The translations under genes were made by a program, and so were the position numbers. From Phycisphaerales bacterium (GTDB lineage Bacteria; Planctomycetota; Phycisphaerae; Phycisphaerales; UBA1924), in contig JADLCM010000002.1 in assembly GCA_020847175.1 (NCBI GenBank), positions 1 through 64,000 on the forward strand: 64,000 nucleotides of DNA, given 5' to 3'. Under the pieces are notes generated by a model. The model was not told the origin of the DNA. It saw only the letters and a list, made by a program, of their open reading frames with translations, and did not search any database. This document shows positions 13,337 to 33,391 of this stretch, piece by piece (the stretch's first letter is position 1; each line of letters starts with the position of its first letter).

Positions 13337-16221
13337 GCGATCCGCGGAAGCCAGACTTCGACTCGCCCCCTGGCGCGCCGGGACGCCCCCGCTTCGGCTA
13401 TGCGCCCCGCGCCGGGCAGGGGCCTTCCTCCGGTGAACTCCCTCCCGAAGTCAGCATCGTCACGCCTTTTCACGACGACCTTGAGGAGTTCTTCGAGACC
13501 GAGGCGTGCGTGCTCGGGCAGTCGCTCCAGTCATTCGAGTGGATCATCGTCAACGACGCCTCGACGAATCCGCGATCGCTCGAGATTCTGGACCAGTTCC
13601 GTGGAGGCCGGCGCGATCCGCGGTTCCGGGTCGTCGATCAATCCGCGAACGCGGGCCCCGGGGCCGCCCGAAACCGGGGCGTGCGCGAGGCCCGGGCCGA
13701 GTTCATCTTCCAGCTCGACTCCGACGACCTCATCGAGCCCACGACGCTGGAGAAGTGCCTGATCTTCCTGCGGACGCATCCGCGAAGCGCGTTCGTCAAG
13801 GGGTACAGCGTCGCCTTCGGCGCCAAGCGGCACTCCTACGAGAAGGGGTTTCATTGCCGGGCCGAGTTCCTCACGCGCAACTGCGCGACCATCACCACGA
13901 TGATCCGGCGCGAGGCGTTCCTGGCCATCGGCGGCTTTGACGAGTCCATCCGCGCGGGCATGGAGGACTGGGATCTCTGGCTCCGCTTCGCCGACGCCGG
14001 GTTCTGGGGCGAGACGATTCCCGAATACTTCGACTGGTACCGTCGCCGCGCCTCGCACGCCGACCAGTGGCAGGACTGGGACGATGGCCAGCGCCAGGCG
14101 CAGTTCGCGGCCCGCATCGCGGCGAGATACGCCGGGCTGCGCGCCAAGGGGTTCCCCCGAACGCGAGAGACGGTCACCCGTCCCTGCCAGCCCGTGCGCC
14201 GCGATGTCCCGTGGCGCAACCCGCTCGCGAAGTCCGGACGCCGGGTGCTCATGATCCTGCCTTGGATGCGCATGGGAGGCGCGGACAAGTTCAATCTCGA
14301 TCTCGTCGGTCAGCTCCGCGCCCGCGGATGGGGCGTGACCATCGCGGCGACGACCGGCACCCAGAACTCGTGGATCCAGCGTTTCGCGGCGCTGACGCCG
14401 GACATCTTCGTGCTGCCCGCGCTGGCGAGTGAGCACGATCTGCTTCCCGTCCTGCGCGGGCTGATCGACAGCCGCGACCCGGATGTCGTCATGCTCTCGA
14501 ACTCCGAGGCTGCGTACGCCGAACTGCCGGCCCTTCGCGGTCTCTGCCCGGGGCGCGCGTGGGTGGACTACAACCACATGGAAGAGGAGGACTGGCGCTT
14601 CGGCGGGCACCCCCGCGCGGGCGTCAGCGCTTCGGGCCATCTCGACCTCAGCATCACCGCCTCGGAGCATCTCCGTTCGTGGATGGTCGCCCGAGGTGCA
14701 GACCCGGCTCGCACCGAGGTCTGCACGATCAACGTCGATGCCGACGAGTGGAAGCCCGACCCGGATGCCTGCGCCCGCGTGCGCGAGCGCCTGGGCCTCG
14801 ATTCTGCCGAGCCCGTCATTCTGTACGCCGGGCGCCTCTGCGCCCAGAAGCAGCCCGAGGTCTTCGCCCGCACCATGGGCCTTCTCGCCGGCGCCGGCGA
14901 GCGCTTCACGGCGCTGGTCGCCGGTGACGGCGAAGATCGCCCCCTGCTGGAACGCCGCCTTCGCGAGGTGGGCGCTGCCGGGAAGGTCCGCATGCTCGGC
15001 GAGTGTTCCGGCGAGCAGATGCGCGAACTGATGGCCGCCTCCGACATCTTCTTTCTCCCCTCGCGCTGGGAAGGCATCGCCCTGGTTCTTTACGAGGCGA
15101 TGAGCGCGGGGGCCGTCGTCGTGGGCGCTGACGTGGGCGGACAGAAGGAACTTGTCACGCCGGATTGCGGCGTTCTCCTCCCCAAGGCCGCACCGGGACG
15201 CGAAGCCGAGGATGAACCCCCTGCGTACGCCCGAGCGCTCGCGGCGCTCCTCCGGGCCCCCAAGATGCGTCTGGCGATGCGGGCGGCGGCCCGCACCCGC
15301 GTCGAGTCCCACTTCAGGCTCTCGGCGATGGGCGACCGGATGGATGCCCTGCTTCAACGCGCGGTCGAGTTGAACCGCACCGACCCTCGGGCCCGGGTGG
15401 ACGCCCTTCTCGCCTTTGACTTCGCCGATCGCTCCGCCGAAGCGCGGCGTCTCGCCCGCGCCGCGGACCGTCTCTGGCAGGAGAACAAGCGCCTTCGCCA
15501 GCTTGCTGCGCCGCCGACCGGCCCGGTTATTGCGGAGCCCAAGCCGGGTGGCGCGCTCCATGGTTCAACGCTGCCGCACCAGCGGGCGCCCAGGCCCGCC
15601 GCCTCGGGCGGACGCAGCGTTGCGGCTGACAGCCCCGCCCACGAGGGGTCGGCACACAACGGGGTCCACGCGGCGCGGCACGGGACCCCCGGCCCGCAGG
15701 CGGTCGGCGTGAACGGAGTTCATCACACCAATGGCGCGGCGGGCGCCGCGGCGCGCAGGCCGCCCGCGTTGGGCGCGACAAGCTCGGGTGCGGGGGGGCA
15801 TGCCCGCGGCGCGAGCCGCGGGGAACCAAGGCGGCGCCGACTTGACACCCAAACCGTCAAGCCCAAGGAGATCGCCTCCGTCGATCCAGACCACGGCGCG
15901 CGCCTGCATCTTGCAGCCATCGAGTCTTCCCGCGCTTGGCGACTGGTGCAGCGCCTGAAGCACAACCCGGCGTATGGGCTTGTCGCGCGGCTCCGCTGGG
16001 GGCCGGGGTGGCGCACCAGGGCCAAGTCCGGAACGCCGTCCCAGCGGTTGAGGCGCATTCTCAACTCCCGCTCGTACCGGCTCATCGCGTGGGTGAAGCG
16101 GAGGAGGCTCTATCGTCTGGTCCGCCCCGGCGATAGACACTCACGTCGAATTGTCGAGGTCAAGGTCAGCCCGACCCCCCCGATCGCGGTGTCCGCGCGG
16201 AGTGAGCAGGTCTCATCGTAG
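13333..16221 (+). CDS. Bifunctional glycosyltransferase, GT2 plus GT4 domains
   Basis: A 962-residue protein. Residues about 38-280 form a GT2 (GT-A) domain with V-S-I-V-T-P-F-H, V-N-D-A-S-T-N and the metal-binding D-S-D-D at 129-132, followed by E-D-W-D-L-W-L-R. Residues about 300-690 form a GT4 (GT-B) domain with M-G-G-A-D-K-F-N near 312, Y-A-G-R-L-C-A-Q-K-Q-P and P-S-R-W-E-G-I-A-L-V-L-Y-E-A-M near 575-590. A low-complexity Gly/His/Pro/Ala-rich linker of about 100 residues follows, then a basic helical tail containing two similar S-R-A-W-R-L-V / S-R-S-Y-R-L-I segments. No membrane helix is predicted. Two active sites in one chain suggest polymerisation of a two-sugar repeat or stepwise addition. 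It is the last gene of the glycan cassette. Confidence 0.85.
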   Translation: MSDPRKPDFDSPPGAPGRPRFGYAPRAGQGPSSGELPPEVSIVTPFHDDLEEFFETEACVLGQSLQSFEWIIVNDASTNPRSLEILDQFRGGRRDPRFRVVDQSANAGPGAARNRGVREARAEFIFQLDSDDLIEPTTLEKCLIFLRTHPRSAFVKGYSVAFGAKRHSYEKGFHCRAEFLTRNCATITTMIRREAFLAIGGFDESIRAGMEDWDLWLRFADAGFWGETIPEYFDWYRRRASHADQWQDWDDGQRQAQFAARIAARYAGLRAKGFPRTRETVTRPCQPVRRDVPWRNPLAKSGRRVLMILPWMRMGGADKFNLDLVGQLRARGWGVTIAATTGTQNSWIQRFAALTPDIFVLPALASEHDLLPVLRGLIDSRDPDVVMLSNSEAAYAELPALRGLCPGRAWVDYNHMEEEDWRFGGHPRAGVSASGHLDLSITASEHLRSWMVARGADPARTEVCTINVDADEWKPDPDACARVRERLGLDSAEPVILYAGRLCAQKQPEVFARTMGLLAGAGERFTALVAGDGEDRPLLERRLREVGAAGKVRMLGECSGEQMRELMAASDIFFLPSRWEGIALVLYEAMSAGAVVVGADVGGQKELVTPDCGVLLPKAAPGREAEDEPPAYARALAALLRAPKMRLAMRAAARTRVESHFRLSAMGDRMDALLQRAVELNRTDPRARVDALLAFDFADRSAEARRLARAADRLWQENKRLRQLAAPPTGPVIAEPKPGGALHGSTLPHQRAPRPAASGGRSVAADSPAHEGSAHNGVHAARHGTPGPQAVGVNGVHHTNGAAGAAARRPPALGATSSGAGGHARGASRGEPRRRRLDTQTVKPKEIASVDPDHGARLHLAAIESSRAWRLVQRLKHNPAYGLVARLRWGPGWRTRAKSGTPSQRLRRILNSRSYRLIAWVKRRRLYRLVRPGDRHSRRIVEVKVSPTPPIAVSARSEQVSS

Positions 16222-16390
16222 AGACGTGATCGAAAGAGCCCCGAACCCGGGGGACTCGGCGTGCGGCCCGTGTCCGTACCCGATGCGTGTCTCGTTCGGA
16301 TGCGGTCTGTCGCCCGGCGCGCGGGTGCAATACAGTCGCTCCGTACGCGATTATCAGGAGGTCCGGGCGCTCGCGCCCCAGGAGGTTTCC
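16222..16390 (+). promoter_or_regulatory. Probable promoter region of the serine hydrolase gene
   Basis: This 169-bp gap separates the glycan cassette from the next gene. It contains GCAATACAGT near 16327 with a TACAGT hexamer that could serve as a -10, but no convincing -35. AGGAGG (16380-16385) five bases before the ATG at 16391 is a strong ribosome-binding site. Confidence 0.25.
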
Positions 16391-17857
16391 ATGAAGCCCG
16401 CGTCTGTGATCGCCGCCTTCGGCCTCGCCGTGTCGATCGGGTCGCCTCTGCTTGCGCAGGGGACCGCGCCCGCGCCGGCGCAGCAGGCGGCGGGCGAGCC
16501 GCTCGATGCAGCCCACCGGTTCATCGAGGCCGAGATTCGGGCCAAGCGAATCGTGGGGGCGGTGGTCTTCGCCCAGTCGCGCGACGAATCGGCCTGGACG
16601 AGCCTCGCGCTCGGTCTCGCGCAGCAGGGCACCGGGGCCGGCGCCGTGCCGATGCGCACCGACCACCTCTTCCATATCGCCTCCATGACCAAGCCCGTGA
16701 CGGCCACGGTAGTGATGATCTTGGTGGAGCGAGGCACGCTCGACCTCGATACCCCGGTCTCGGCCTACCTCGACGAGTTCAAGGACGCGAAGCTGCCGGA
16801 CGGCACGCCGTGCGAAGCCCCGACGCTGCGCCAGTTGCTCTCGCACACGGGCGGGGCCCCGGGCAACAACGACCGCAACTCGCTCTTCCGTGAAGACACG
16901 ATGGACCGGAACGCGAGCTTGGAGGCGAACATCGAGGCCCTCGCGTCCAAGGGGCTCTCCGCGGCGCCGGGCACCAAGTACGCCTACTCGGGCCTCGGAT
17001 TCTCGATCGCGGCGCGGGTCGCGGAGAAGGCCTCGGGCAAGGAGTTCGAGTCCCTGTGCCGCGAGCTGCTCTTCGCCCCCCTGGGGATGGACCACACAGC
17101 CTTCCGGCCATCGAGCGACGCGTTCAGCGCCAAGGCGAAGGGCTATCGCAAGACCGCGCAGAACGAGTGGCGCGAGCTGATCGAGGTGAAGCCTCCGGCC
17201 CCCGGGGCATACATCAACGCTGGCGGCGGGCTGTATTCAACGGGCGAGGACATGCTCAAGTTCTTCCGCCTGCACGCCCTCGGCGGCGAGGTCGATGGCA
17301 AGCGGCTGCTGAGCGAGAGTTCCATCAAGGCGATGCATACGCGACAGAGCGATTTCGCGACGTACGGTCTGGGCTTCCAGCTCGCACCCGACACCGAGAC
17401 GGGGGCCGTCTCGCGCTTCGTGCATCACGGCGGCGCGCTGGGCACCCTCGCCATCGTGGACTCCGAGACCGGGCTCGCCGGCATCGTGCTTACGCAGACT
17501 CCCGCGGCGCAATCGCGGGCCTTTCTGCGCGCCGTGCAGGAGCGCATCTTCGCGGGCTACGGCGTGACCCTGCCCAGCGAAGAAGAAACTGAGGGCGTGG
17601 TGGAAGGAGCCGCCGACCCGCGCATGGTTGTGCAGGGCGACCTCTCCGGCCAGGGCAAGGGCCTTGCAGAGGCGCTTCGGCAGATGGACAAGGATGCCGA
17701 CGGCCGGGTGTCGAGATCGGAATGGACCCGGCGACCGGAAGCCTTCGACCTGATCGACGGGGACAAGGATGGCTTCCTGACCGGCGAAGAAGTGAAGGCC
17801 ATGGCGGAGCGGCTCGGCGGCGGACGCCCCAACCGGCGCCCACCCGGGGGCGGATAA
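16391..17857 (+). CDS. Secreted serine hydrolase (beta-lactamase/class C family) with C-terminal EF-hand pair
   Basis: A 488-residue protein. An N-terminal signal peptide ends near A22-Q23. The beta-lactamase/D-Ala-D-Ala carboxypeptidase-like domain has the nucleophile motif SMTK at 98-101, Y-S-G at 199-201 (the YxN position, with Gly replacing Asn) and H-H-G-G in place of KTG. This pattern is common in family S12 esterases and peptidases of unknown substrate. The C-terminus carries two calcium-binding EF-hand loops, D-K-D-A-D-G-R-V-S at 433 and D-G-D-K-D-G-F-L-T at 456, then a Gly/Pro/Arg tail. It probably acts in the periplasm or at the cell surface, with calcium affecting stability or attachment. 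The ATG at 16391 is preferred over longer frames because of AGGAGG upstream and the signal peptide after it. Confidence 0.85.
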   Translation: MKPASVIAAFGLAVSIGSPLLAQGTAPAPAQQAAGEPLDAAHRFIEAEIRAKRIVGAVVFAQSRDESAWTSLALGLAQQGTGAGAVPMRTDHLFHIASMTKPVTATVVMILVERGTLDLDTPVSAYLDEFKDAKLPDGTPCEAPTLRQLLSHTGGAPGNNDRNSLFREDTMDRNASLEANIEALASKGLSAAPGTKYAYSGLGFSIAARVAEKASGKEFESLCRELLFAPLGMDHTAFRPSSDAFSAKAKGYRKTAQNEWRELIEVKPPAPGAYINAGGGLYSTGEDMLKFFRLHALGGEVDGKRLLSESSIKAMHTRQSDFATYGLGFQLAPDTETGAVSRFVHHGGALGTLAIVDSETGLAGIVLTQTPAAQSRAFLRAVQERIFAGYGVTLPSEEETEGVVEGAADPRMVVQGDLSGQGKGLAEALRQMDKDADGRVSRSEWTRRPEAFDLIDGDKDGFLTGEEVKAMAERLGGGRPNRRPPGGG

Positions 17858-19719: not shown

Positions 19720-20625
19720 TCAGGGGGGCAGGACCTGAATCTGGATGGTCACGACGGCGTCGGGCTTTGCGGGGTCGAGGGCATCGAGGGCGGGGCCCTT
19801 GGCGCGCCAGCGGTAGAGGGCGGAGACCCACGGCTCGTCGACATTGACATTGCCCGAGGAGCGGACGACTTCGACGTACCTGACCGCGCCGTCGCGCCCG
19901 AATGAGAGGTTGAAGACGGGCTTGATGCGGGCGGAGAGGAGTTCGGCCGGGATCGAGAGGTGCGCGGGGACGCGGGTTTCGATTTCGAGCCCCTGGGCCG
20001 CGGCGGTCTGGCCGGGCTTCCAGGAGATGGGGTCGGTCTTGGCGGCGGCTTCGGATTCGGAGTTGGAATTGCCGGGTTGAGGCTCGGCGGGGCTCGTCGC
20101 GCTTTCGGAGGACAGGGGCGCTGCGGGCGCGCCCGGAGGGTCGGCGGGCGGGGCGGCCGGGGGCGCGGGCGGCGCCTCGGCGAGACTCTTGAGGATGGGA
20201 AGCAGGCGCTCAGCGGCGTCGGCGAGCCAGCGCGAGGGGGGCGGCGCCGCCGGAGAGATCGCTTCGGAGGGGCGCGGCGAGGGCGGCTGGGGCGCAGCGT
20301 CGGGGGCCGGGGGCGTCGGGGCGGGCGGCGCGGATGCAGATTCGGCGGCGCTGAGAGTTCCGGCGGGGCTCGCGAGGGCGAGCAGGGGCTGCTCGGTGAT
20401 GGACCGGCGCGCGTCGTGGGGCGTGGGGCGCTGGAACCCGAGCCAGGTCATCGTGACGTGCTCGGATTCGCGAACGCCGAGCCGGACGGGGGGCTCGGCG
20501 GGAGGGGATGGGGATTCGGGAAGGGCCGCGCGGGGCGGCGCCGGGGGGCGCGGAGCGCCCATGACGACCAGCGCGTGAATCGCAAGGCTGGCGCACGCGG
20601 CGAGGATGAGGCGCGGGTCGCGCAT
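19720..20625 (-). CDS. TonB-like energy transducer protein
   Basis: A 301-residue protein with TonB architecture: a short cytoplasmic start, one membrane helix (about 7-24), a long Pro/Ala/Ser/Glu-rich periplasmic spacer (about 25-205) and a C-terminal domain (about 215-301) with K-P-V-F-N-L-S-F-G-R-D-G-A-V-R-Y-V-E-V-V-R-S-S-G and a following W-R-A-K, the strand-helix-strand pattern of TonB/TolA C-terminal domains. Known family role: passing proton-motive energy from ExbB/ExbD to outer-membrane partners. It lies 40 bp behind frr, so it probably shares the pyrH-frr transcript. ExbB and ExbD genes lie about 4 kb away in a divergent operon and are the likely partners. Sequence similarity outside the C-terminal domain is only compositional. 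Confidence 0.72.
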   Translation of the reverse strand: MRDPRLILAACASLAIHALVVMGAPRPPAPPRAALPESPSPPAEPPVRLGVRESEHVTMTWLGFQRPTPHDARRSITEQPLLALASPAGTLSAAESASAPPAPTPPAPDAAPQPPSPRPSEAISPAAPPPSRWLADAAERLLPILKSLAEAPPAPPAAPPADPPGAPAAPLSSESATSPAEPQPGNSNSESEAAAKTDPISWKPGQTAAAQGLEIETRVPAHLSIPAELLSARIKPVFNLSFGRDGAVRYVEVVRSSGNVNVDEPWVSALYRWRAKGPALDALDPAKPDAVVTIQIQVLPP

Positions 20626-22310: not shown

Positions 22311-23306
22311 ATGAAGACACGCCCCGATGAAGAGTTCGGCGCCCGGGCCTCGGGGGGCGGGCAGGCGACAGCTGAGCCCGCACCGGTGGACATCACGGAG
22401 CGCGTGCTGCGCCTGTGCCGCAACGCGGCGGTGGTGGGCATCACGGTGTCGCTCGCGGTGCACCTGATCGGGTGGATCATCTCGATGATGGTGGGGATCT
22501 CGCTGCCGGGCAAGGCCGCGGCGGTGGAGCCGGTTCAGGGCATCGAGTTCGCGGTGATGATGGACGCGGAGTTGAAGGAGATTGAGGATGCGGCGCTGAC
22601 GCAGCTCGACCCGAGCGTGCCGGAGGTGGCGCTTGAGAACGTCGTGAGCGACGAGCTGCTGGATGCGCCGGCGGTGTCGGATGAGACGGGCGCGGTGATC
22701 GACGAGGCCGACCTCGGCGACATCGCGGGCGGGGGCGACATCGGGTCGGGCCCGGGCATCGGCGAAGGATCGGGGGGTTCCGGGGGCGGGGCGTCGCTCT
22801 TCGGGGTGGAGGCGTCGGGGCGCCGGTTCGCGTTCATCATCGACGTGTCGGGCTCGATGGCGTACGAGGGGAAGATCGAAGCGCTGCGGGCGCAGTTGGC
22901 GTCGAGCCTCGAGGGGCTGGTCGAGAACGCCGAGTTCTGCGTGATGCTCTTCAGCAACGGGGCGTTTCCGCTCGGCGGGCGCGCGGGGTGGATTGAGGCC
23001 AACCCGCGCGAGAAGGCGCGGGCGCGGCAGTCGATCAGCGCGCTCACGCCCTCGGGGGGGACGTTCCCGGAGGAGGCGTTTGTCGAGGTGTTCAAGCTGA
23101 AGCCCGCGCCGGATGCAATCTACTTTCTGACCGACGGCGAGTTTGACCCGGCGGTGGTCACGACGGTGAACTCGATCAACAAGTCGCCGACGATCCCGAT
23201 TCACTGCATCAGTTTCGTCAACCCGGTGGCCGGGGCCGCGATGAAGCAGATCGCCCAGGCCTCCGGCGGAACGTACACCCATGTGCCGGGGCCGGGACGC
23301 CCGTGA
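22311..23306 (+). CDS. Membrane-anchored VWA-domain protein
   Basis: A 331-residue protein. One membrane helix lies at about 40-66 (V-V-G-I-T-V-S-L-A-V-H-L-I-G-W-I-I-S), then an acidic segment, a Gly/Ser/Ile-rich linker (about 145-163) and a von Willebrand factor A domain to the end. The metal site motif D-V-S-G-S is at 178-182, followed by the second loop around T-P-S-G-G-T and the Y-F-L-T-D-G-E-F-D strand, so the MIDAS is intact. The helix position puts the VWA domain outside the cytoplasm. It is the first gene of a run whose members overlap each other and include ExbB and two ExbD proteins, so it probably belongs to a proton-driven envelope complex. The ligand is unknown. Its stop overlaps the next gene as GTGA. 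Confidence 0.75.
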   Translation: MKTRPDEEFGARASGGGQATAEPAPVDITERVLRLCRNAAVVGITVSLAVHLIGWIISMMVGISLPGKAAAVEPVQGIEFAVMMDAELKEIEDAALTQLDPSVPEVALENVVSDELLDAPAVSDETGAVIDEADLGDIAGGGDIGSGPGIGEGSGGSGGGASLFGVEASGRRFAFIIDVSGSMAYEGKIEALRAQLASSLEGLVENAEFCVMLFSNGAFPLGGRAGWIEANPREKARARQSISALTPSGGTFPEEAFVEVFKLKPAPDAIYFLTDGEFDPAVVTTVNSINKSPTIPIHCISFVNPVAGAAMKQIAQASGGTYTHVPGPGRP

Positions 23307-24424
23307 TCGCCAGACTCGCGATGCTCGTGCTGACGTGCGCCGCCTCGGCGCAGGTGACCCTGCGCGGGAGCGCCGCCCCGGAGCCCGGCACCGTGGAGGA
23401 CGTGTCGCTCGACGGGGTTGCGCTGGTGAGCGCGGACGGGCGCACGCACTCGGTGCTCGGATGGGCGACGGTGGAGCGCGTTGACGGCCCCCTGGCGGAG
23501 AAGGCGGCGGAGTTCCGGCCCGCCGCCGAGAAGGCGTGGAGGGCCCGGGAACGACTGGTGCGGGGCGACGCGGTGGCGGCGGAGCCGATCTTTGAAGAAC
23601 TCTTCACGGTGTACGAGGGTCGGCGCGGGCCGACCGCGGCGGGGGTGGCTGAGGGTTTGCTGCGGTGCCGCCTGAGGCGAGGGGTCCATGTCGGGGCGGT
23701 CGGGCCGTGGCTGGCGCTGCTGCGCGCGGGGGGGAGCGGCGAGCCTGGCGTGCCCGGGGCGCAGCCGGTGATCGACGAGCGGAGTTCGCTGGCGCCGGCG
23801 CTGCCGCCCATGTGGCTTTCGGGGGCGGCGGTCGAGGCGTTTGCGCGAGCGCCCGCACCACCGGGCGCGACGAACGACCAAGCGGCGCTGCTGCTGGCGT
23901 GGTACCAGTACGCAGCGGCGATGGAGATGGGGCTGCCCGTGCAGGCCCGGCCCCAGGCGCCCGCGGGTGATGCGACGGTGCAGTTCGTCTCGCGGATCGT
24001 GCTGGCGCGGGCGGGCACGCCGGAGGAGCGACTGGCGAGCCGGCGGTTTCTGGGCGAAGAAATGAAGCGCGCGGGCGACACGTGGCGCGAAGCGTGGTGC
24101 CGCGCCGCGATCGGGCGGTCGCTGATCCGAGAGGACGATGCTGGGGCGCGGGAACTCGGGGTGATCGAGTTGCTGCACCTGCCCGCGCGGTTCGGGCGTG
24201 AGCAGCCGTATCTCGCGGGGCTGTGCATGGCGGAGGCGTCGGTGACGCTGGCGGGGCTTGGCCGGGCCGACGAGGCGCGGCGGCTGGGGCAGGACCTGGC
24301 GTCAAAGTACCCGGGGCATCCGGCGCTGGCGTGGGAGCGGCTTCGGACGATGGTGGCGGGCCCGGCGGCGGCGCCCGCCGCGCCGGGCGCGCCCCGGGAG
24401 GCGGAATCGCTGCCGCCGGGTTAG
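23303..24424 (+). CDS. Secreted protein of unknown function, helical
   Basis: A 373-residue protein that I do not recognise. A short signal peptide (M-I-A-R-L-A-M-L-V-L-T-C-A-A-S-A-Q) opens it. A small beta-rich part follows (V-E-D-V-S-L-D-G-V-A-L-V-S), then an Ala/Arg/Leu-rich helical body with repeat-like E-A-R-R-L-G-Q-D-L segments near the C-terminus, resembling TPR or Sel1-type solenoids without a clear consensus. The GTG start overlaps the previous stop. Place in the operon and predicted export suggest a periplasmic partner of the VWA/ExbBD proteins. Confidence 0.6.
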   Translation: MIARLAMLVLTCAASAQVTLRGSAAPEPGTVEDVSLDGVALVSADGRTHSVLGWATVERVDGPLAEKAAEFRPAAEKAWRARERLVRGDAVAAEPIFEELFTVYEGRRGPTAAGVAEGLLRCRLRRGVHVGAVGPWLALLRAGGSGEPGVPGAQPVIDERSSLAPALPPMWLSGAAVEAFARAPAPPGATNDQAALLLAWYQYAAAMEMGLPVQARPQAPAGDATVQFVSRIVLARAGTPEERLASRRFLGEEMKRAGDTWREAWCRAAIGRSLIREDDAGARELGVIELLHLPARFGREQPYLAGLCMAEASVTLAGLGRADEARRLGQDLASKYPGHPALAWERLRTMVAGPAAAPAAPGAPREAESLPPG

Positions 24425-24484
24425 GCTCGCGGCTGGAGAAGCGTCGCCCGCGGTCTGCGCGGGCCCAGGCAGAAAGGCACGCAC

Positions 24485-25249
24485 GTGGACATGCTCGCAC
24501 GAGGACTGATGCTGGCGCAGGCGGGTGAGGAGACAGCGACGAAATCGCTGTTCGATTACATCCGATCGGGTGGCCCGATCGGCTACCTGATCATCTTTCT
24601 GTCGTTCGTGGCGCTGGGGCTGTTCATCGCGCAGTTGGTGGTGCTGCGCCGGGCCCGGCTCGCCCCCGACAGCGTGGTGAGAGAACTGCAAGGGCACCTG
24701 GAGCGTCACGATGTGCAGGGGGCGCTGGCGTTCTGCCGCCTGCCGGACGCGGCGTGCTTTCTGACGCGGCTGTTCGGCGGCGCGATCCTGCGGTGCCAGC
24801 GATCGGCGTTCGGGTTTCTCGAACTCAAGTCGGCGCTCGAGGAAGCGGGGCAGCGCGAGACGGCGCGACTCTACCGGGCGACCGACGGCATCGGCCTCAT
24901 CGCGGCGGTGGCGCCGATGCTGGGGCTGCTGGGCACGGTGGTGGGCATGGTCGGGGCGTTCGACACGATCAGTTCGACCGAGGGCGTCGCGAAGCCGGGG
25001 CAACTGGCGGGGGACATCTCGGTCGCGCTCATCACGACGGTGGAGGGCCTGTGCGTGGCGATTCCGGCCACGATGGCGTTCTCGTGGCTTCGGAACCGGA
25101 TCGACGGGGTGGTCGCGGAGGTGGGCGAGGTGATCGAAGCGATGGCGTCGCTGATCGAGGGATCGAAGGGGCAGGGGGCACAGGCCGGGGGGGGGACGCC
25201 CCGGCCTCGGCCGCAGCCCGCCCCGGCGCGCGAGGCAAGCCGGGCATGA
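24485..25249 (+). CDS. exbB: MotA/TolQ/ExbB proton channel family protein
   Basis: A 254-residue membrane protein. Helices lie at about 32-55, 136-158 and 177-202; the second contains G-L-L-G-T-V-V-G-M-V-G-A-F, the family signature, and the third starts with the I-S-V-A-L-I-T-T-V-E-G-L region lining the channel. The long cytoplasmic loop between helices 1 and 2 is typical. With ExbD it forms the proton-driven stator. The GTG at 24485 fits AAAGG at seven bases' spacing better than the ATG six bases later. The C-terminal tail is Pro/Gly/Arg-rich. The stop overlaps the first exbD as ATGA. Confidence 0.92.
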   Translation: MDMLARGLMLAQAGEETATKSLFDYIRSGGPIGYLIIFLSFVALGLFIAQLVVLRRARLAPDSVVRELQGHLERHDVQGALAFCRLPDAACFLTRLFGGAILRCQRSAFGFLELKSALEEAGQRETARLYRATDGIGLIAAVAPMLGLLGTVVGMVGAFDTISSTEGVAKPGQLAGDISVALITTVEGLCVAIPATMAFSWLRNRIDGVVAEVGEVIEAMASLIEGSKGQGAQAGGGTPRPRPQPAPAREASRA

Positions 25250-25677
25250 ACCTGACCCGTCCACGATCGAACGTGCGGGCGATGGATCTCACGCCGATGA
25301 TCGACGTGGTGCTCCAGTTGCTGATCTTCTTCATGTTCACGTCGCAGTTCGCGCAGTTGACGCGAACCTCGGTGAACCTGCCGGAACAGGCGGGGGACAA
25401 GGACGGTGGCCGATCAGCGCCCACCATCACGATCGACATCGGCGCCGAGGGCCGGATGCTCATCGAGAGCCGCATGGTCGAGATGGCTGAGGTGGAGCGG
25501 ATCGTGCGGGCGGAGATCGATCACGCCGGGGGAGACGCGGCGCGCGTGACGGTGCTGCTGCGGAGCGATCGCGACCTGCCCGCGCTGTTCGTGAACGGGC
25601 TGGCGCTGCGGCTGAGCGCGCTGGGCGTGCGCGGGTGGCGGCTGGGGACGAGCGCCCCGGCGGGTGGCGGGTCATGA
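25246..25677 (+). CDS. exbD: Biopolymer transport protein ExbD/TolR family (first copy)
   Basis: A 143-residue protein with a short cytoplasmic N-terminus, one membrane helix and a periplasmic domain. The channel aspartate is D20 in the motif T-P-M-I-D-V-V-L-Q-L-L-I-F-F-M, as expected of ExbD/TolR. The periplasmic part has R-S-D-R-D-L-P-A-L-F-V, close to the usual D-x-x-x-x-Y/F strand. It overlaps exbB upstream and the second exbD downstream (both ATGA). Two ExbD proteins next to one ExbB suggest a heteromeric rotor core. Confidence 0.9.
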   Translation: MNLTRPRSNVRAMDLTPMIDVVLQLLIFFMFTSQFAQLTRTSVNLPEQAGDKDGGRSAPTITIDIGAEGRMLIESRMVEMAEVERIVRAEIDHAGGDAARVTVLLRSDRDLPALFVNGLALRLSALGVRGWRLGTSAPAGGGS

Positions 25678-26087
25678 ACCTCGCCCGCGGGCGGGGCGCC
25701 CGGCACACGTACGACCTGCCGCTCACGTCGCTGATCGACGTGGTGTTTCTGCTGCTGGTGTATTTTCTGCTCACGCTCTCGCTCAACCAGCGAGAATCAG
25801 ACCTTGCGTCGGCGCTGCAGCAGGACAAGCAGGGGGCGGGGAAGGCCGCGGACCTGACGCCGCAGATCGTGCGGGTGGAACTGGTTGACGGGAAGGCGGT
25901 GTACCGTCTGGGGGAGCGGGTGTTCGGGTCGCAGCGTGATCTGCGGGCTGTGCTGGAGGCGCTGCCGAAGGAGGGAGGCGTGTTTGTTCGCGGGAGCAAT
26001 CTCGCGCCGGTGTCCGCGGTGGCGGGTGCGCTGCAGGCGTGCAAGGACGCGGGGTTTACCAAGGTGACGTATGTGCCCACGAAGTGA
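25674..26087 (+). CDS. exbD: Biopolymer transport protein ExbD/TolR family (second copy)
   Basis: A 137-residue ExbD/TolR protein different from its neighbour. The membrane helix carries the channel aspartate D22 in L-T-S-L-I-D-V-V-F-L-L-L-V-Y-F-L. The periplasmic domain ends in A-L-Q-A-C-K-D-A-G-F-T-K-V-T-Y-V-P, matching the family's final strand. It begins within the previous stop codon, and its own 3' end overlaps the start of the next gene by 17 bp, so all are surely co-translated. Confidence 0.9.
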   Translation: MNLARGRGARHTYDLPLTSLIDVVFLLLVYFLLTLSLNQRESDLASALQQDKQGAGKAADLTPQIVRVELVDGKAVYRLGERVFGSQRDLRAVLEALPKEGGVFVRGSNLAPVSAVAGALQACKDAGFTKVTYVPTK

Positions 26088-28827
26088 GCAGCGACTCCCG
26101 CGGGGCGGCACGGGTCGGCGCGCCCGGGCGGCGCTGCTGTGGGCGTGGTGCGCGGCGTGCGGCGCGGCGGGCCAGCCCGCGGCGGGCGACGCGCCCGACG
26201 AACGGCTGCTGACGGCGGAGGACGTCGTCGAGCGATACATGCGCGGGCTGGGGCTGACCGACCTGGTGGTGACGCAACTGCGCGACCGGCTGGCGCGGGC
26301 GAGCGCGGAGGAGAAGCTGCCCCTGGCGGAGCGGCTCGGCGAGATCCTGGCGCAGCGCCTGCACGATGCGCCCGACGGGGCGGCCCGGCGCGCGGTGGAG
26401 ACGCTCGCCGAAGACCTGCTGCGCGAGGTGCCGACGGCACAGAGTTATGACCTGCGGCTGAACCTCGCCAAGGCACGCTACCTGCGGGCCGAGGAGATCG
26501 CCGAGCGGGCGCGGCTGCTGCTGGCGACCGACGACGAAACGGCGGAGGCGGTGCGCATCCTCGGCACCTCGCGCGAAGTGTTCGCGCAGGTGGGGGCGGC
26601 GGCGCACCGGGGCGTCGAGACCCGGGAGCGGCTCGAGCGGCGCGGGGGCGACAATGCGCAGCAGATCGAGGCCGAACTGGCGACCCTGCGGCGCCAGCGG
26701 TCGCTCGCGATGTATTACGCGGGCTGGAGCGGGTATTACCTGGCGGAGCTGACCGGGCAGGCGCGGCTCGCGGCGGAGGCGCAGGGCGCGTTCGCGTACC
26801 TGCTCAACGCCCCCGGAGAGCGGATGCCCACGGTGGACGGACTCCCGTCGTCGCTGCTGCAGTATGAGCACATGGCGCGCGCGGGCGTGGGGGTGGCGAT
26901 GGCGGCGTCGCTGCAGGGGGATGACGCGACGGCCCTCCGGTGGCTCGATGCGCTGCGGCAGAGCGGCGAGGTGCCCCCCGCCGTGCGGGAGCAGTTGTTC
27001 TCGCGGCGCATGATCGTGTTGGCGCGGGCGAAGCGATGGGCGGACGTGGAGTGGTCGATCCACCGGCGGGGGCGCGACGGCACGACCCGGGCCGAGGATG
27101 GGCCGCTCACCGTCGTCGAGGCGCGCCTGCTCGCGGTGCTGGCGCTCACGGGGCTCCAGACGCCATCGGGCAACCGGGAGCGAGACGCGATCGTGCAGTC
27201 GCTGGCGCAGCAGGCGCTGGGTGAACTTGTGCGCCGGGGCGAGGTCGGGCACGTGCTGAGCCTGGTGCGCCGGTTTGACGCCGCGGTGATCGGCGAGGAC
27301 GGGTTCATTGTCCGGTACGTCGCGGCGCTGGGGTTGTACGAAGATGCGCGGGCGGCGCACGGCGCGGCGGGCGGACGCGACACCGAGCCGACGAGCGACG
27401 CGGTCGCGGGCACACGCTACCGGGAGGCGGCGCTCGCGATGCGGAAGGCCGTCGAGGCCTCGGATGCGGGGTCGTTCAAGGCGGAGGCGTCGAAGGCGCA
27501 GGTCTTCGAGGGACTGTCGCTGTTCTACTCCCGGTCGTTCGAGAAGGCCGCCGAGGCGCTGCAGCGCGTGTTCGCATCCGATGCGGAGGCTGGGCTGCGC
27601 GAGGAGGCGCTGTGGTTTGCGATCGCGGCGCTGGACCGGGCCGCCGAGGAGAAGCCCTCGATTGAGGCGCGGCGCGATGAGTTCTGCGCCCTGTTCCTGC
27701 AGTCGTTCCCGGGGTCTGAGCGGGCGGCGCGGCTGCTGATCCGGCGCGGATCGAGCGAGATGGGAGACCCGCAGGAGGCGGCGCGGGTGCTGCTCGCGGT
27801 GCAGCCTACTTCCGCGCTCTACCGGGCGGCGCGCGGGCACGCGGCAACGCTCCTGTACCGCATCTTCCGGTCGTCCCGGGCCGAGCAGCGCGACTTCGCG
27901 GCGGTGCAGTTCGTCGAGGTCGCGGGCGAGGTCGTGGAGCTGGAGCGCGCCGCGGCGCTGGAGGCGGACGCGGAGCACATGGTCGCGATTTCGCGCTCCA
28001 TCGTGCTGCGGCTGCGGCAGATCGCCGACGCCCTGCTCGCGACGAGCGCCCCGGACTACGCGCGGGCGGAGCGGACCATCGAGATGGTGAGAGAGACGGC
28101 CTCGGCCGCGGGGATTGACACGTCGGAGTTCGCAGCGGAGCTTGCGTACCGGTCGCTGCAGGTGGGGCTCGGGCGGCAGGACCGGGCGGCGATCGAACGG
28201 GCCCTCGAAGCCCTGCGGACTGATGCCTCGGGAAAGTACGCCGAGGCGGCCGACAATCTCATGTACCGCGAGGCGCTCCGGGCGTTCAGCGCGAACCCGC
28301 ACGACGAGGCGCTGGCGCGCGACCTGCTGCGATTCGGGCTGCGCATCGCGGACACCGGCGGGCGTCGCCCGGGGGCCACGCACGACCCTGGGGTGCAGAC
28401 CGTCTTCAACCGGGTCGCCGAGGCGGCGACGTTTCTGTGGCAGGAGCACGACGACACGCTCGCCCGGGACATCGCGGTCCGGCTTGACAAGGAACTGCTG
28501 GACGCGGGCGTGCGGGCGAGCGCGCTCCTGCGCCGGTACGCCTTCAACACGGAGGCGTCGGGCGACCTCGAGGCGGCCCTGGAGTGCTGGCGTCAGCTGC
28601 TCGCGGGGCTCGGAGAGGGCACGCCGGAGTGGTTCGAGGCTCGCTACCACTCGGCGCGGGTGCTGGGGCTCACCGACCCGCAGCGCGCGCTGAGCGTGCT
28701 CGACCAGCACGCGACCCTGAACCCCGACTACGGGCCCGAGCCGTGGGGGGCGCAGCTGCGGGCGCTCCACGCCGAGATGCGCGAGCGGGCCGCGTCGGCC
28801 CCGCCGGCGCCGGAGGGGGCGCCGTGA
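26071..28827 (+). CDS. Large secreted alpha-solenoid (TPR-like) protein
   Basis: A 918-residue protein with no family that I can name. It opens with a basic segment and a hydrophobic core (A-A-L-L-W-A-W-C-A-A-C-G-A-A-G) that should act as signal peptide or anchor. The rest is almost entirely Ala/Leu/Arg/Glu-rich helix pairs with TPR-like phrasing (for example Y-Y-A-G-W-S-G-Y-Y-L-A-E-L, G-L-S-L-F-Y-S-R-S-F-E-K-A-A-E-A-L and the final L-E-A-A-L-E-C-W-R-Q-L-L), implying a long curved scaffold of more than a dozen repeats. The ATG at 26071 overlaps the second exbD by 17 bp; the stop overlaps the next start as GTGA. Its position suggests a periplasmic scaffold for the ExbBD motor. Confidence 0.6.
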   Translation: MCPRSEQRLPRGGTGRRARAALLWAWCAACGAAGQPAAGDAPDERLLTAEDVVERYMRGLGLTDLVVTQLRDRLARASAEEKLPLAERLGEILAQRLHDAPDGAARRAVETLAEDLLREVPTAQSYDLRLNLAKARYLRAEEIAERARLLLATDDETAEAVRILGTSREVFAQVGAAAHRGVETRERLERRGGDNAQQIEAELATLRRQRSLAMYYAGWSGYYLAELTGQARLAAEAQGAFAYLLNAPGERMPTVDGLPSSLLQYEHMARAGVGVAMAASLQGDDATALRWLDALRQSGEVPPAVREQLFSRRMIVLARAKRWADVEWSIHRRGRDGTTRAEDGPLTVVEARLLAVLALTGLQTPSGNRERDAIVQSLAQQALGELVRRGEVGHVLSLVRRFDAAVIGEDGFIVRYVAALGLYEDARAAHGAAGGRDTEPTSDAVAGTRYREAALAMRKAVEASDAGSFKAEASKAQVFEGLSLFYSRSFEKAAEALQRVFASDAEAGLREEALWFAIAALDRAAEEKPSIEARRDEFCALFLQSFPGSERAARLLIRRGSSEMGDPQEAARVLLAVQPTSALYRAARGHAATLLYRIFRSSRAEQRDFAAVQFVEVAGEVVELERAAALEADAEHMVAISRSIVLRLRQIADALLATSAPDYARAERTIEMVRETASAAGIDTSEFAAELAYRSLQVGLGRQDRAAIERALEALRTDASGKYAEAADNLMYREALRAFSANPHDEALARDLLRFGLRIADTGGRRPGATHDPGVQTVFNRVAEAATFLWQEHDDTLARDIAVRLDKELLDAGVRASALLRRYAFNTEASGDLEAALECWRQLLAGLGEGTPEWFEARYHSARVLGLTDPQRALSVLDQHATLNPDYGPEPWGAQLRALHAEMRERAASAPPAPEGAP

Positions 28828-31800
28828 CCACGAACACGTCCAGCCCGACGGGGATGTTCCTCGGGATCGAGGCGGCGGCGGGAGGCCCGTTCGCGCTCCT
28901 CGGGATCGCGCCGGGGGCGTGCACCGACCGCGCCGTGCTCGCGGCGCTCCAGGCCCAGCTTGACCGGGTGGACGGGCACATCCAGGCGGAGACGCCGCAG
29001 GCTGATGAAGTGCGCCTCGCGCTCCATGCGGCGGCGGCGCAGCTGCTTGACCCGAGCGTGCGCCAGTTGATGGTCGCGCGTTGGAGCGCTGCGGAGCCGG
29101 CGCCGGCGAACCGGTCCGGGCCGGGGGCACATCCGACGTGGCAGGGCGACTCGACGGGCAGGAGAGTCGAGGGCACGGCCCGGGCTTCGGAGGGAGGGTC
29201 GGTCGATGGGGCGGCCGGGCGCACACCGCCCGGAGCGCTGCTCGCCATCGAGCAGGACATGATCCGGCTGATTGCCCGGAACGGCGGCTGGGGGCCCCGG
29301 ACGCTTCGCGAGGTGGCGCTTTTCGCGCACGCGCGCGGCTTCGATGTGGCGCAGGTGCCCGAGGCCATCCGCGTCATCACGGCGCGCCGGCGCGCCGGGG
29401 GGAGCGGGGGCGGGGCCCCGGCGCGCTTCGCGTCCCCGGCGGGGCATGACGCGCCGAGTGGTGCGGTGAGGGAGGCCGGCTTCACGGGGCCGAGGACAAG
29501 CGGGGTCCGGCGTCGAAGCGCGGCGGCTGCGCCGATGGCGACCGCGGGGACTGCCCCCGAACCGGCGACCGGCCGGGGACTCATCCCGGACGGAGAGGGC
29601 ACGGATGAGCACGCGCCCGACCCGGTCAGGCGCATCGCGGTGTGGACCGGATTGGTCGTGTTCTGCGTGCTGAGCGCGACGGGAATCCTCCTCGCGGTGC
29701 TCCCCCTCCTCAAGGACGATCCGGGGAGCGCGAGTCCCGGTGCCGCGGGGACGCCGACGATCACGGTGCCCGGCCGACCGGAGACGGCGAGCGGGCCGGG
29801 ACGCACGCTCAAGCCGGTGGACCCCGCGCCCGAGCCCGCGACGCCCGCAGACCGCCCGATGACGGCAGCCGAGGCGCTGGCGCTGGTGCGGACGAGCACA
29901 GAGGGGCTGGCGATTGACCCGGAGCAGGCGGCGACGGACTTTGAGCGGGCCGTGCTGCGGCTGGGCGAAGTGTGGTGCGACCTGCCGCGCGATCAGCGGG
30001 TGGCGGGCGTGGACCAGATCGTGGAGTACGTGTACCGGGCCTCGGCGTGGGCCGACATTGCTTCGAGCGGCGTAGAGACCATCGCGGGCCCGAGCATGCG
30101 GCTGCGGCTGGCGGGGAAGGGACTCGCGCCGGACGAAGTGTGGCCCGCGATCTGGTCTGTGGGCGTGCTGACGCGCCTGAGCCGGGAGCGTGACCTGACG
30201 AGCGGGGCCGTCTCGGTGATCGACGCGTCGCTGACCGGCGCGCTGGGAGGCGGGCGGGCGGCGCTCAACCAGACCTTTGATGCCGGGGCGCTGGCGGCGC
30301 TGGCGGAAGCGACTCGCCTGCTCGCGTCGCCCGGCGATGAGTCGTCGCCGACAAATCCGCGTGAGCTGCTGGACTCGTGGCGCCGGTGGATTCGCGCGAT
30401 CGATGCCGTGGCGGGGACCGACCCGTCGGTGCGCAATCGGCTTCTGCTCTCGGGCCTCGATGCGATCCTGCGCGAAGGCCCGGCGCCGGAGACCCACCGC
30501 CCGACGTTTGACGCGGGGGCGGCGGTGGCGGGGGCGGTGGACTGGAGCGACGCCGTCGCGGCCCGCCCCTGGCTGATCTTCGCGTTTTCGGCGCCCTCGA
30601 TTTCGACGCCGGACCTGTTCATCGTGACCAGCGCGATCGTGCGCCAGGGCAAGACCGAAGGGGTGGATACGTCGATGGTGCTGCCCGCGAGCGCCGGGGA
30701 CCAGGATCGGCAGATGCTCCGCGAGCGGTACGCGCGCTTGTGGGGCGACGTGAGCGAGGAGCGCGAGGATGAACTGGCCGACCTGTGGCGCGAAGCGCTG
30801 GGACGCCTGGAGGCGGGCCGGCGCTCGGACACCACGCCCGCGGAGTTCCTGGCCAGCGCCGTGCGGCTGGCGCGTCTCAACCTCGCGGCAGAGCAGCGCT
30901 GGTACGGGCGGTTCGAGGATGCGGGCAACCTGCTGGGCGACCTCTCCGGGCCCGTGGATGCCGAGTTCTCGGGGACGAGCGAGGTCTCCCGTCCGCTCGA
31001 CCCGGGGGCGGACACGTCGTGGGCGGTGGACTATCTCTCGACCAACAACGCGGAACTGCGCATCCAGAAGATCAGCGAGGTCGGCTCGCGCGGCAGGTAC
31101 AGCCAGATGACCGCCGAAGTGCTGGTCTTCGAGGCGACCCGCTCGCAGCGCGATCGGGTGCGGCAGGCGGCGTACGACGCGGTCTTCCGCGAGACCGACC
31201 AGCCCACGGTGGTCAACGCCCTGCTCGAGCAGCTCCCGGACATTCCCGGCTCGCGGCGCAACACGGCGCTGGTGGGGCGGGCGGCGCTGCTGGGCTCGCT
31301 CTCGCCGGATGATGATCGGTGGCGGCTGCGGGCGCGACGTGCGCTGGTGGAGCGACTCACCCAGATGCTCGCGTCGACGGGTGAGTTTGCGATCGTCGAC
31401 CGGCTCGGGGAGATCATGTCGGAGACGTACGCGGCGCGGACCAGCATCACGGCCCCGACGGCGGCCTCGCGCGCCGGACTGCCCCGGGCCGAGTTCAGCG
31501 CGGCCCTGCTTCGCCAGAGTTGGCGCCGGCGCGCGGAGGGGGCGCTGGCCAACCCGTCGCTCGGGTTTTCGCTCGGTGAGATCGAGCGCCGGCGCACGGC
31601 GCGGCTGGCCCTGGCCGAAGGCCCGGTGCAGCTCTTTGCGACGGAGCAGTTCGCGGTGCTCGACCTGATGGCCTTCGTGCTCGCGAGCGAACGCCCGGAC
31701 CTCGTGCCGGCGATCCGGGCCGCGATCGAGGAGTGCGCCGGGCGCCGACGACTGGCCGAGCACATCCTTGAGCAGATCAGCGCAACCGAGCTCGCCATGT

Positions 31801-31841
31801 CGGTGCTGTGGGATCTGCGGTTGTCGGGAGGCACGCCATGA
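28824..31841 (+). CDS. Large single-pass membrane protein with J-domain-like N-terminus
   Basis: A 1005-residue protein starting with GTG at 28824 inside the previous stop. Residues about 22-82 (P-F-A-L-L-G-I-A-P-G ... Q-L-L-D-P-S-V-R) have the phrasing of the degenerate J-like domain seen on planctomycete membrane proteins; the HPD motif is absent, with G-H-I at its place. A disordered Ala/Gly/Arg/Pro-rich stretch follows, and a membrane helix lies at about 271-296 (T-G-L-V-V-F-C-V-L-S-A-T-G-I-L-L). The remaining 700 residues are helical and probably periplasmic, after a Pro/Thr-rich linker. It has no recognised domain there. As part of the ExbBD run it could link a cytoplasmic partner to the periplasmic scaffold. 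Confidence 0.6.
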   Translation: MTTNTSSPTGMFLGIEAAAGGPFALLGIAPGACTDRAVLAALQAQLDRVDGHIQAETPQADEVRLALHAAAAQLLDPSVRQLMVARWSAAEPAPANRSGPGAHPTWQGDSTGRRVEGTARASEGGSVDGAAGRTPPGALLAIEQDMIRLIARNGGWGPRTLREVALFAHARGFDVAQVPEAIRVITARRRAGGSGGGAPARFASPAGHDAPSGAVREAGFTGPRTSGVRRRSAAAAPMATAGTAPEPATGRGLIPDGEGTDEHAPDPVRRIAVWTGLVVFCVLSATGILLAVLPLLKDDPGSASPGAAGTPTITVPGRPETASGPGRTLKPVDPAPEPATPADRPMTAAEALALVRTSTEGLAIDPEQAATDFERAVLRLGEVWCDLPRDQRVAGVDQIVEYVYRASAWADIASSGVETIAGPSMRLRLAGKGLAPDEVWPAIWSVGVLTRLSRERDLTSGAVSVIDASLTGALGGGRAALNQTFDAGALAALAEATRLLASPGDESSPTNPRELLDSWRRWIRAIDAVAGTDPSVRNRLLLSGLDAILREGPAPETHRPTFDAGAAVAGAVDWSDAVAARPWLIFAFSAPSISTPDLFIVTSAIVRQGKTEGVDTSMVLPASAGDQDRQMLRERYARLWGDVSEEREDELADLWREALGRLEAGRRSDTTPAEFLASAVRLARLNLAAEQRWYGRFEDAGNLLGDLSGPVDAEFSGTSEVSRPLDPGADTSWAVDYLSTNNAELRIQKISEVGSRGRYSQMTAEVLVFEATRSQRDRVRQAAYDAVFRETDQPTVVNALLEQLPDIPGSRRNTALVGRAALLGSLSPDDDRWRLRARRALVERLTQMLASTGEFAIVDRLGEIMSETYAARTSITAPTAASRAGLPRAEFSAALLRQSWRRRAEGALANPSLGFSLGEIERRRTARLALAEGPVQLFATEQFAVLDLMAFVLASERPDLVPAIRAAIEECAGRRRLAEHILEQISATELAMSVLWDLRLSGGTP

Positions 31842-32899
31842 CCAAGCGAAGCCTTGCCTGGGTCTGTGCTGTTGCGGCGTGCGCGGCGGTCGGGATGACT
31901 GCTGCGGTGCAACCTGCGCTCCAGCCCGAGGTGAGCGGGCCGGCGCCGGAGACAGCGCCGCCGGAGGTGGAGCCGAGCCTGCCGGAGGAACTGTCGAACC
32001 TGCGCGTGCCCGAACTCGGCGCGCGGCTGGCGGGGCTGGACCCGGCGTCGCCCGAGGCGTACTTCGCGCTGGCCGAGGATGTCGCCGCGGTGGGGTATGA
32101 GCCGGCGCACGTCGAACTCGCGAAGACGCTGTTCGTCCTGGCGTACTCCCTGGACCGGCAGCGTGTGCCCGCGACGTGGATTTCACCGAGCGCGTGCGTG
32201 GCCCTCGCGCATCTCTCGCGGCTCGACCGGGAGCGCCGCTGGCTGCTTTCGCTGGCGCGTGCGCTCGACCGGCGCTATGCCCCGCCCGATTGGAACACCG
32301 CCGACCCCGTGCGGGTCTCCGACGAAACGGCCTACGCGGCGTGCACCGCGGTGTCGCTGGTGCGCGCGGGCGAGGGCCGCAAGGCGCGCGATCTGCTCGC
32401 GCGCCCCGAGGTGAGGGCCCTGCTCGACGCCTACGAGAGCCTGCTCCACCCGGCGGGCCTGCCCGGGGAGGCGCAGCGCATCGTCCGCGAAGCCGAGCGC
32501 TGGCCCTGCCCGGAGTGCTCCAACCAGCGCATCGTGCGCAAGGCGGGCACCAACCCGCCCGCGTACAACATCTGCCCGTGGTGCCTGGGCAACCCGGGCA
32601 TGAAGCTCACCCAGGCGGAACTGATCGGCCAGCTGCGGTTCGAGTCTCGCCTGCTCGCGGGGGTGCACCGCTCGTGGTCGGCACAGATTTCTGCCGACGG
32701 GGGCCTCCCCCTCCGCGATGCCGACCCGGGGGAACTCGCGACGACGCTGGGCATCGACGCTGAGCGGGTGCTGTGGCGCGAGGGCCGCTGGGTGGGGGAC
32801 GGCGTGCCCAAGCCACCGGCGCGAGAGCCCCCCACGCCCTCGCCGAAGCCCGCCGAGGCGCCCGCCCCGGGCGCGGGGTCGACCGTGAGCGGCAGTTGA
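31838..32899 (+). CDS. Secreted protein with a four-cysteine zinc-ribbon-like motif
   Basis: A 353-residue protein not assigned to a family. A signal peptide (V-C-A-V-A-A-C-A-A-V-G-M-T-A-A-V) is followed by an acidic Pro-rich linker and a helical domain. Two CxxC pairs, C-P-E-C at 224-227 and C-P-W-C at 246-249, could bind zinc or form disulphides after export. The C-terminus is Pro/Ala-rich. The start overlaps the previous stop as ATGA; this is the last gene of the run. The cysteine pairs are worth noting because extracytoplasmic zinc ribbons are uncommon. Confidence 0.6.
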   Translation: MTKRSLAWVCAVAACAAVGMTAAVQPALQPEVSGPAPETAPPEVEPSLPEELSNLRVPELGARLAGLDPASPEAYFALAEDVAAVGYEPAHVELAKTLFVLAYSLDRQRVPATWISPSACVALAHLSRLDRERRWLLSLARALDRRYAPPDWNTADPVRVSDETAYAACTAVSLVRAGEGRKARDLLARPEVRALLDAYESLLHPAGLPGEAQRIVREAERWPCPECSNQRIVRKAGTNPPAYNICPWCLGNPGMKLTQAELIGQLRFESRLLAGVHRSWSAQISADGGLPLRDADPGELATTLGIDAERVLWREGRWVGDGVPKPPAREPPTPSPKPAEAPAPGAGSTVSGS

Positions 32900-32968: not shown

Positions 32969-33391
32969 ATGGCAGACCCCGCAGGCACGAACCACGCTTC
33001 TTCCGCGAATGCTCCCGGGGCCGCGCAGGGGGCGCCGGAGGCCAAGCCGCGCGTGAGTTTCGATGAGTTTGCCCGGCTCGACCTGCGGGTGGCGCGGGTG
33101 ATTTCGGCGGTTGACCACCCGAGCGCCGACCGGCTGTTCAAACTGCAGGTCGATGACGGGAGCGGAGAGCCGCGCCAGATCTGCGCGGGAATCAAGGGGC
33201 ACTACCGGGCGGAAGACCTGGTCGGCAGGCTGATCGTCATCGTCGCCAACCTTGAGCCGCGCAAGATCAGGGGTGAGGAGTCTCGGGGGATGCTCCTGGC
33301 GGCGAGCAGCGGTCCCAAGGAGGCCGCAGACCGCAAGGTTATCGTGCTCTCTCCCGCGGGAGATGCGCTGCCGGGCTCGATTGTGAGTTGA
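32969..33391 (+). CDS. tRNA-binding domain protein (MetRS C-terminal/CsaA-like)
   Basis: A 140-residue protein with an OB-fold tRNA-binding domain. Clear family marks are F-A-R-L-D-L-R-V-A-R-V, H-P-S-A-D-R-L-F-K-L-Q-V-D, the Q-I-C-A-G-I segment, V-A-N-L-E-P-R-K-I-R-G-E-E-S-R-G-M-L-L-A-A and a final P-G. This matches the separate C-terminal dimerisation domain of methionyl-tRNA synthetase and related EMAP-II/CsaA proteins. The first 25 residues are disordered (Ala/Asn/Gly). CAAGGAGG upstream of the ATG supports this start. No metG gene is in the window, so whether it serves MetRS in trans or acts as a chaperone is open. Confidence 0.9.
   Translation: MADPAGTNHASSANAPGAAQGAPEAKPRVSFDEFARLDLRVARVISAVDHPSADRLFKLQVDDGSGEPRQICAGIKGHYRAEDLVGRLIVIVANLEPRKIRGEESRGMLLAASSGPKEAADRKVIVLSPAGDALPGSIVS

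Follow-up and report, generated by a model that had tools for sequence, protein, structure and literature searches.

A conserved eight-gene locus of Phycisphaerales encoding a candidate proton-driven force transducer of the cell envelope

Introduction

A run of eight genes in a Phycisphaerales bacterium combines the subunits of an ExbB/ExbD-type proton channel with a membrane VWA protein and four large proteins, and the question is what work such a channel would drive there. The preliminary description of this DNA proposed an undescribed proton-driven machine, in which the solenoids and the VWA protein serve as the load or track of a dedicated motor. Here, the locus was analysed in the window, i.e., the whole stretch of 64,000 nucleotides, and in related genomes. 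We consider it probable, at roughly 0.6, that the eight genes encode a trans-envelope force transducer powered by the proton motive force.

Results

Gene order and conservation

The locus spans positions 22311-32899 and consists of the genes VWA, P2, exbB, exbD1, exbD2, S918, S1005, and Z353, all on one strand and predominantly overlapping. The eight open reading frames were located where they had been described, and their lengths (331, 373, 254, 143, 137, 918, 1005, and 353 aa) were checked and all match. The same is true of the junctions, which are GTGA at VWA/P2 (23303-23306) and S918/S1005 and ATGA at exbB/exbD1, exbD1/exbD2, and S1005/Z353, as well as of the 60-bp gap from P2 to exbB and the 17-bp overlap of exbD2 and S918. 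The Pfam search of the eight proteins returned VWA_3, MotA_ExbB, and ExbD twice. P2, S918, S1005, and Z353 (373, 918, 1005, and 353 aa) gave no match above the cut-off, in agreement with their description as proteins of no recognised family.

Two sets of loci were used for comparison: 40 neighbourhoods of S918 relatives, and loci fetched by VWA similarity. S918 was present in 44 of 61 relatives, with one copy per genome, except for one gene split across contigs. The eight-gene order was repeated in the 40 fetched neighbourhoods; the exceptions were contig ends, a local swap in one locus (L067), and five loci lacking the exbB-exbD1-exbD2 trio. The overlap of S918 and S1005 was exactly 4 bp in 30 of the 40 junctions. 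Since the order recurs in these relatives and short overlaps are the rule, the cluster is not a product of chance, and the proposal of a single conserved module stands. In nearly all relatives, pyrH-frr is divergent upstream of the VWA gene. Beyond the taxonomic order, the full eight-gene set was found in G310 and G388, and VWA, exbB, two exbD genes, S918, and S1005 occur together in two Phycisphaerae loci, one of which also has Z353. In a 294-genome sample of the phylum, a strong exbD2 orthologue was detected in nine genomes, all of which have full-length S918; the single S918 genome without strong exbD2 (G141) is one of the loss genomes described below.

The S918 profile also gave hits across many further families; these were excluded as members and not counted because they were mostly short C-terminal TPR matches, several of them distant from any exbB. 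In one distant planctomycete (L258, 986-4909), two proteins of ~620 aa whose N-terminal helices resemble that of TonB are encoded close to an S918-like gene, with no adjoining exbB. The locus is followed at 32969-33391 (+) by a gene for a small tRNA-binding-domain protein, which stands after Z353 in 17 of 40 relatives and is probably a neighbour rather than part of the machine. Elsewhere in the window, the gene at 16202-17857 (+) encodes a serine hydrolase domain of the beta-lactamase family and, after it, EF-hand repeats. A Wzt-type ABC transporter gene at 8661-10172 (+), followed by large methyltransferase- or glycosyltransferase-like genes, probably belongs to a surface-polysaccharide export locus.

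Motor subunits

The exbB gene (24485-25249, +) codes for an ExbB/TolQ-like proton-channel subunit of 254 aa (PF01618, 1.3e-26), whose nearest solved chains are TolQ (2.2e-18) and ExbB (2.4e-16). It is followed by exbD1 (25246-25677, +; 143 aa; PF02472, 1.7e-15) and exbD2 (25674-26087, +; 137 aa; PF02472, 4.8e-12). T151 (24935-24937) and T185 (25037-25039) of ExbB are invariant in the alignment of homologues, and so are the transmembrane (TM) aspartates D20 of ExbD1 (25303-25305) and D22 of ExbD2 (25737-25739). The alignment with E. coli ExbD covers the TM aspartate in the case of ExbD1 and is full-length in the case of ExbD2. The residues of a 5:2 proton motor, namely two channel Thr in the TolQ/ExbB subunit and a TM Asp in each ExbD, are present, and the description of one ExbB and two different ExbDs with the channel aspartate proved accurate.

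The subunits scored far below the equivalog cut-offs of both standard systems: ExbB 43.6 against 206.2 bits and ExbD1 27.8 against 216 in the ExbB/ExbD models, TolQ 69.2 against 221 and TolR 45.5 and 20.9 against 127.3 in the TolQ/TolR models. With such scores, the ExbBD pair is not clearly a standard iron-uptake set. The TonB-receptor plug domain (PF07715) had zero matches in this 95.6% complete genome, and siderophore uptake, which the preliminary description had already considered unlikely, was dismissed because the domain is absent genome-wide. A Ton system for nutrient import, with an unusual arm and with a substrate and receptor that fall outside family models, would fit the ExbB/ExbD homology and the TonB-like anatomy of the arm (see below). 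Besides the missing plug domain, it is opposed by the lack of a nearby receptor gene and by the VWA domain in place of the receptor-binding C-terminal domain of TonB, and we regard it as very improbable.

The VWA protein

The first gene (22311-23306, +) codes for a protein of 331 aa with a Pfam VWA_3 match (1.6e-13) at residues 174-323. Its close relatives by similarity come from named Phycisphaeraceae and Phycisphaerales. One TM segment was found, at residue 39, and the alignment revealed an N-in TM helix, a D-box-like strand, a variable linker rich in Gly and acidic residues, and a C-terminal VWA domain. The TM helix contains an SxxxH motif (S47, H51; 22449-22463, +), whose Ser and His are present in all 65 distinct homologues. 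As for the SHLS motif, its Leu and second Ser are not conserved; position 58 is mostly Ala, and position 62 is variable. The MIDAS DxSxS (D178, S180, S182; 22842-22856, +) and the residues completing it, T251 (23061-23063, +) and D275 (23133-23135, +), are likewise invariant (65/65), which confirms a membrane VWA protein with an intact metal site. The D-box-like strand comprises residues 77-90 (GIEFAVMMDAELKE; 22539-22580, +) and was assigned from a position-specific score and its TonB-like pattern. In E. coli TonB, the D-box lies after the membrane helix and is captured by the periplasmic dimer of ExbD; the VWA protein matches TonB in layout and D-box pattern (PMC10907165).

Two other regions of the window contain genes of related types. 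A Bat-like operon at 54135-58190 (+) encodes DUF58, an uncharacterised protein, a BatA-type VWA, and another VWA; it is a second VWA system, unrelated to the eight-gene locus. Directly downstream of frr in this plug-less genome, a TonB-like protein of 301 aa is encoded at 19720-20625 (-). It has no Pfam match; by eye, it shows an SxxxH-type helix, a proline-rich linker, and a TonB-like C-terminus.

The P2, S918, S1005, and Z353 proteins

P2 (23303-24424, +; 373 aa) has a probable signal peptide, and the rest of the protein is weakly TPR-like: P2 itself has no Pfam match, and a few of its homologues match TPR families. It was found in every relative whose locus is intact. S918 (26071-28827, +; 918 aa) is predicted to be an exported, all-alpha TPR-like solenoid. 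Its AlphaFold2 model is all helical with high confidence (mean pLDDT of 89.1), its profile matched consensus TPR chains at 2.6e-19, and some of its homologues have Pfam TPR matches. The Foldseek matches of the model had TM scores near 0.2 and indicate no more than a long TPR solenoid.

S1005 (28824-31841, +; 1005 aa) is a predicted single-pass protein composed of a J-like domain, a small helical region, a TM helix, and a solenoid. The cytoplasmic degenerate J domain (28845-29087, +) was recognised by a profile match to DnaJ J domains (best E of 3.4e-4) and is missing the HPD motif. The TM helix (29622-29711, +) has an internal counterpart in 40 of 40 homologues. The periplasmic alpha-solenoid (29865-31823, +) was predicted by AlphaFold2 with moderate confidence (mean pLDDT for S1005 of 76.6), and a Foldseek search of S1005 against the PDB gave zero matches at E <= 0.001. 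Z353 (31838-32899, +; 353 aa) appears to be exported and carries a zinc-ribbon-like motif, CPEC...CPWC (32516-32593), identified from the sequence and alignment; the motif cysteines are absent in some distant homologues.

Loss and relocation of the motor genes

The exbB-exbD1-exbD2 trio is missing between P2 and S918 at eight loci, five in the 40 S918 neighbourhoods and three among the loci fetched by VWA similarity. In the S918 tree of 63 loci, these eight are without a linked trio, and the others retain it or end at a contig edge. The expectation that the four unknown proteins occur only beside exbB/exbD did not hold at these 8 of 63 loci. The exbD2 profile was run genome-wide on these genomes. 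G013, G468, and G470 have exbD2 orthologues at other sites (143-159 bits), and their relocated exbB-exbD cassettes sit in three different settings. No orthologue, only weak paralogues, was detected in G016, G005, G020, G141, and G469, all of which are draft genomes (with no completeness figure for G469). According to the S918 tree, losses occurred in at least two clades and relocations in two. The motor is thus not strictly obligatory, with five genomes lacking the trio and three carrying it elsewhere.

The D-box was compared between these groups with a leave-one-out position-specific score against shuffled controls. Of the 57 homologues outside the eight trio-less loci, 54 had a D-box score higher than 95% of shuffles, as did none of the five proteins from genomes lacking the trio genome-wide (Mann-Whitney p = 2e-4, calculated on sequences that are not independent). 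The comparison was run before the relocations were known and the final score was picked afterwards, hence it was not blind. A D-box test by degenerate regular expression (p = 0.02) did not separate relocated from lost trios and gave way to the position-specific score once the genome-wide exbD2 search had distinguished the two. Among the relocated-trio loci, the D-box is clear in L143 and L155 and weak in L040. Because relocated trios retain the D-box, its decay tracks genome-wide loss of the trio and not unlinking.

Identity to the D-box consensus was 0.26 in the five loss proteins and 0.52 in the others. The values for the others and the loss proteins, respectively, were unchanged in the TM helix (0.45 and 0.47), linker (0.33 and 0.32), and VWA domain (0.56 and 0.59), and the SxxxH and MIDAS motifs were kept in all five. 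Judged from the aligned sequences, decay of the VWA protein after motor loss is limited to the D-box. This pattern argues for the VWA protein as the normal target of the motor, and the natural losses suggest that one segment of the arm, the D-box, exists to engage the motor. The retained SxxxH indicates that conservation of this motif is not tied to this motor alone.

In the five genomes, the remaining five genes of the locus persist in the absence of the trio, which points to an alternative motor or to a motor-independent role. In the latter case, the VWA protein and the solenoids would form an envelope complex for which exbB-exbD1-exbD2 is an optional energiser. Such a complex would agree with the intact VWA, P2, S918, S1005, and Z353 in the five genomes, the unlinked trio in three, and the unchanged SxxxH and MIDAS. 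We find it unlikely, given that a linked trio is missing at just 8 of 63 S918 loci, that the D-box decays after trio loss, and that at least four of the five loss genomes have paralogous exbB-exbD-exbD trios, which could substitute. The VWA protein and solenoids can perhaps persist without this motor by using a paralogous trio. A second exbB-exbD-exbD trio with no adjoining VWA gene was also observed in G000 (L129, G000:C39:67000-80000, ~5991-7707).

Discussion

Proposed mechanism

For the force transducer, we infer the following assembly and direction of force. A 5:2 motor of the TolQR type would consist of an ExbB pentamer and an ExbD1/ExbD2 pair, with the VWA protein as its TonB/TolA-like arm: the SxxxH helix would dock on the side of the pentamer, and the D-box strand would be caught by the periplasmic domains of the ExbDs. 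The MIDAS of the VWA head may grip a partner that is periplasmic or located at the outer membrane. The exported S918, P2, and Z353, together with S1005, whose solenoid would lie outside and J-like domain inside with a single pass between them, may serve as a scaffold for the motor or as the track that is pulled on. For the VWA protein, this reading departs from the earlier assignment as load or track: it fits best as the TonB-like arm of the motor itself, not as a separate load.

The most likely use would be mechanical coupling of the inner and outer membranes, a Tol-like role. TolB_N (PF04052) and FtsZ_C were not detected in ten genomes, this one included for TolB_N, while the controls matched. 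A survey reported that Tol-Pal is largely reduced in Planctomycetes (PMC8871954), and binary fission without FtsZ has been reported for Phycisphaerales (PMC5147048). The Tol-like role is drawn from the absence of TolB and FtsZ only. It is a tentative and rather doubtful extension that, in planctomycetes without FtsZ and TolB, the machine performs the outer-membrane tethering or constriction otherwise done by Tol-Pal, by means of a metal-gated VWA grip, a two-solenoid scaffold, and a portable trio. The force transducer itself would offer a candidate route for energy to the outer membrane in diderm cells in which neither TolB nor FtsZ was detected. The losses provide a natural test of its mechanism: decay of the motor-box segment alone after motor loss lends evolutionary support to TonB-type coupling of D-box and ExbD.

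Comparison with known systems

The locus resembles TonB-ExbBD in its motor subunits, SxxxH docking motif, and D-box pattern. It differs in the VWA domain replacing the C-terminal domain of TonB, the two unlike ExbDs, the lack of a receptor, and the scores under the equivalog cut-offs. With Tol-Pal (TolQRA), it shares TolQ as the nearest solved relative of ExbB and an arm topology like that of TolA; the VWA head, the large solenoid partners, and the undetected TolB set it apart.

CglB of Myxococcus is a separate outer-membrane or surface VWA lipoprotein, whereas the VWA protein here is anchored in the inner membrane. This difference weighs against a surface-motility or adhesion engine like Agl/Glt, in which the VWA head would be an adhesin or act on one. 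A Glt-type outer-membrane barrel gene was not seen beside the locus, and vertical conservation in a mostly uncultured order is no argument for gliding. The Agl/Glt core comprises aglR, aglQ, aglS, gltC (TPR), gltD, gltE, and the TonB-like gltG (PMC3169522), so that the likeness by gene content extends to one TolQ-like and two TolR-like subunits, a TonB-like protein, and a TPR protein. The agreement in subunit count, together with a gliding role raised for vWA transducers (PMC12204202, Mol Biol Evol 2025), speaks for such an engine, which on balance we hold to be improbable. In Campylobacter, the long periplasmic TPR proteins PflA and PflB position 5:2 motors (PMC12222027). The likeness to the force transducer lies in the long TPR scaffold and is weak for the S918 model (TM of 0.24-0.27 to a scaffold entry); the locus here is without flagellar genes. 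In terms of gene content and predicted fold, Agl/Glt and PflA/PflB are analogies, not memberships.

The closest system is a vWA force transducer that was described from the PVC group in 2025, its function not given, and that is accompanied by one tolQ-like gene, two tolR-like genes, and a TPR gene (PMC12204202). The core is consequently not undescribed, contrary to the preliminary description. AF3 models place the SHLS-vWA arms on such motors, and many, but not all, members carry SHLS (PMC12204202). Judged by the sequence features described there, the locus belongs to the SHLS-vWA class: it has a TM helix with Ser and His, a motor box, a linker, a C-terminal vWA, and adjacent tolQ-like, two unlike tolR-like, and TPR genes, and the class has been reported in Planctomycetes. 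Unlike in that work, the VWA gene comes first here, and a natural-loss test of the motor box, S1005, Z353, and a fixed eight-gene set are not part of it, nor are Phycisphaerales mentioned in its main text (PMC12204202). In the literature search, no paper was found linking Phycisphaerales to ExbB, or an ExbB proton channel to VWA and TPR proteins. The new elements are an eight-gene set that includes S1005 and Z353, the conservation of this set, a mobile motor cassette, and D-box decay; the vWA force-transducer class gains a defined, deeply conserved eight-gene form.
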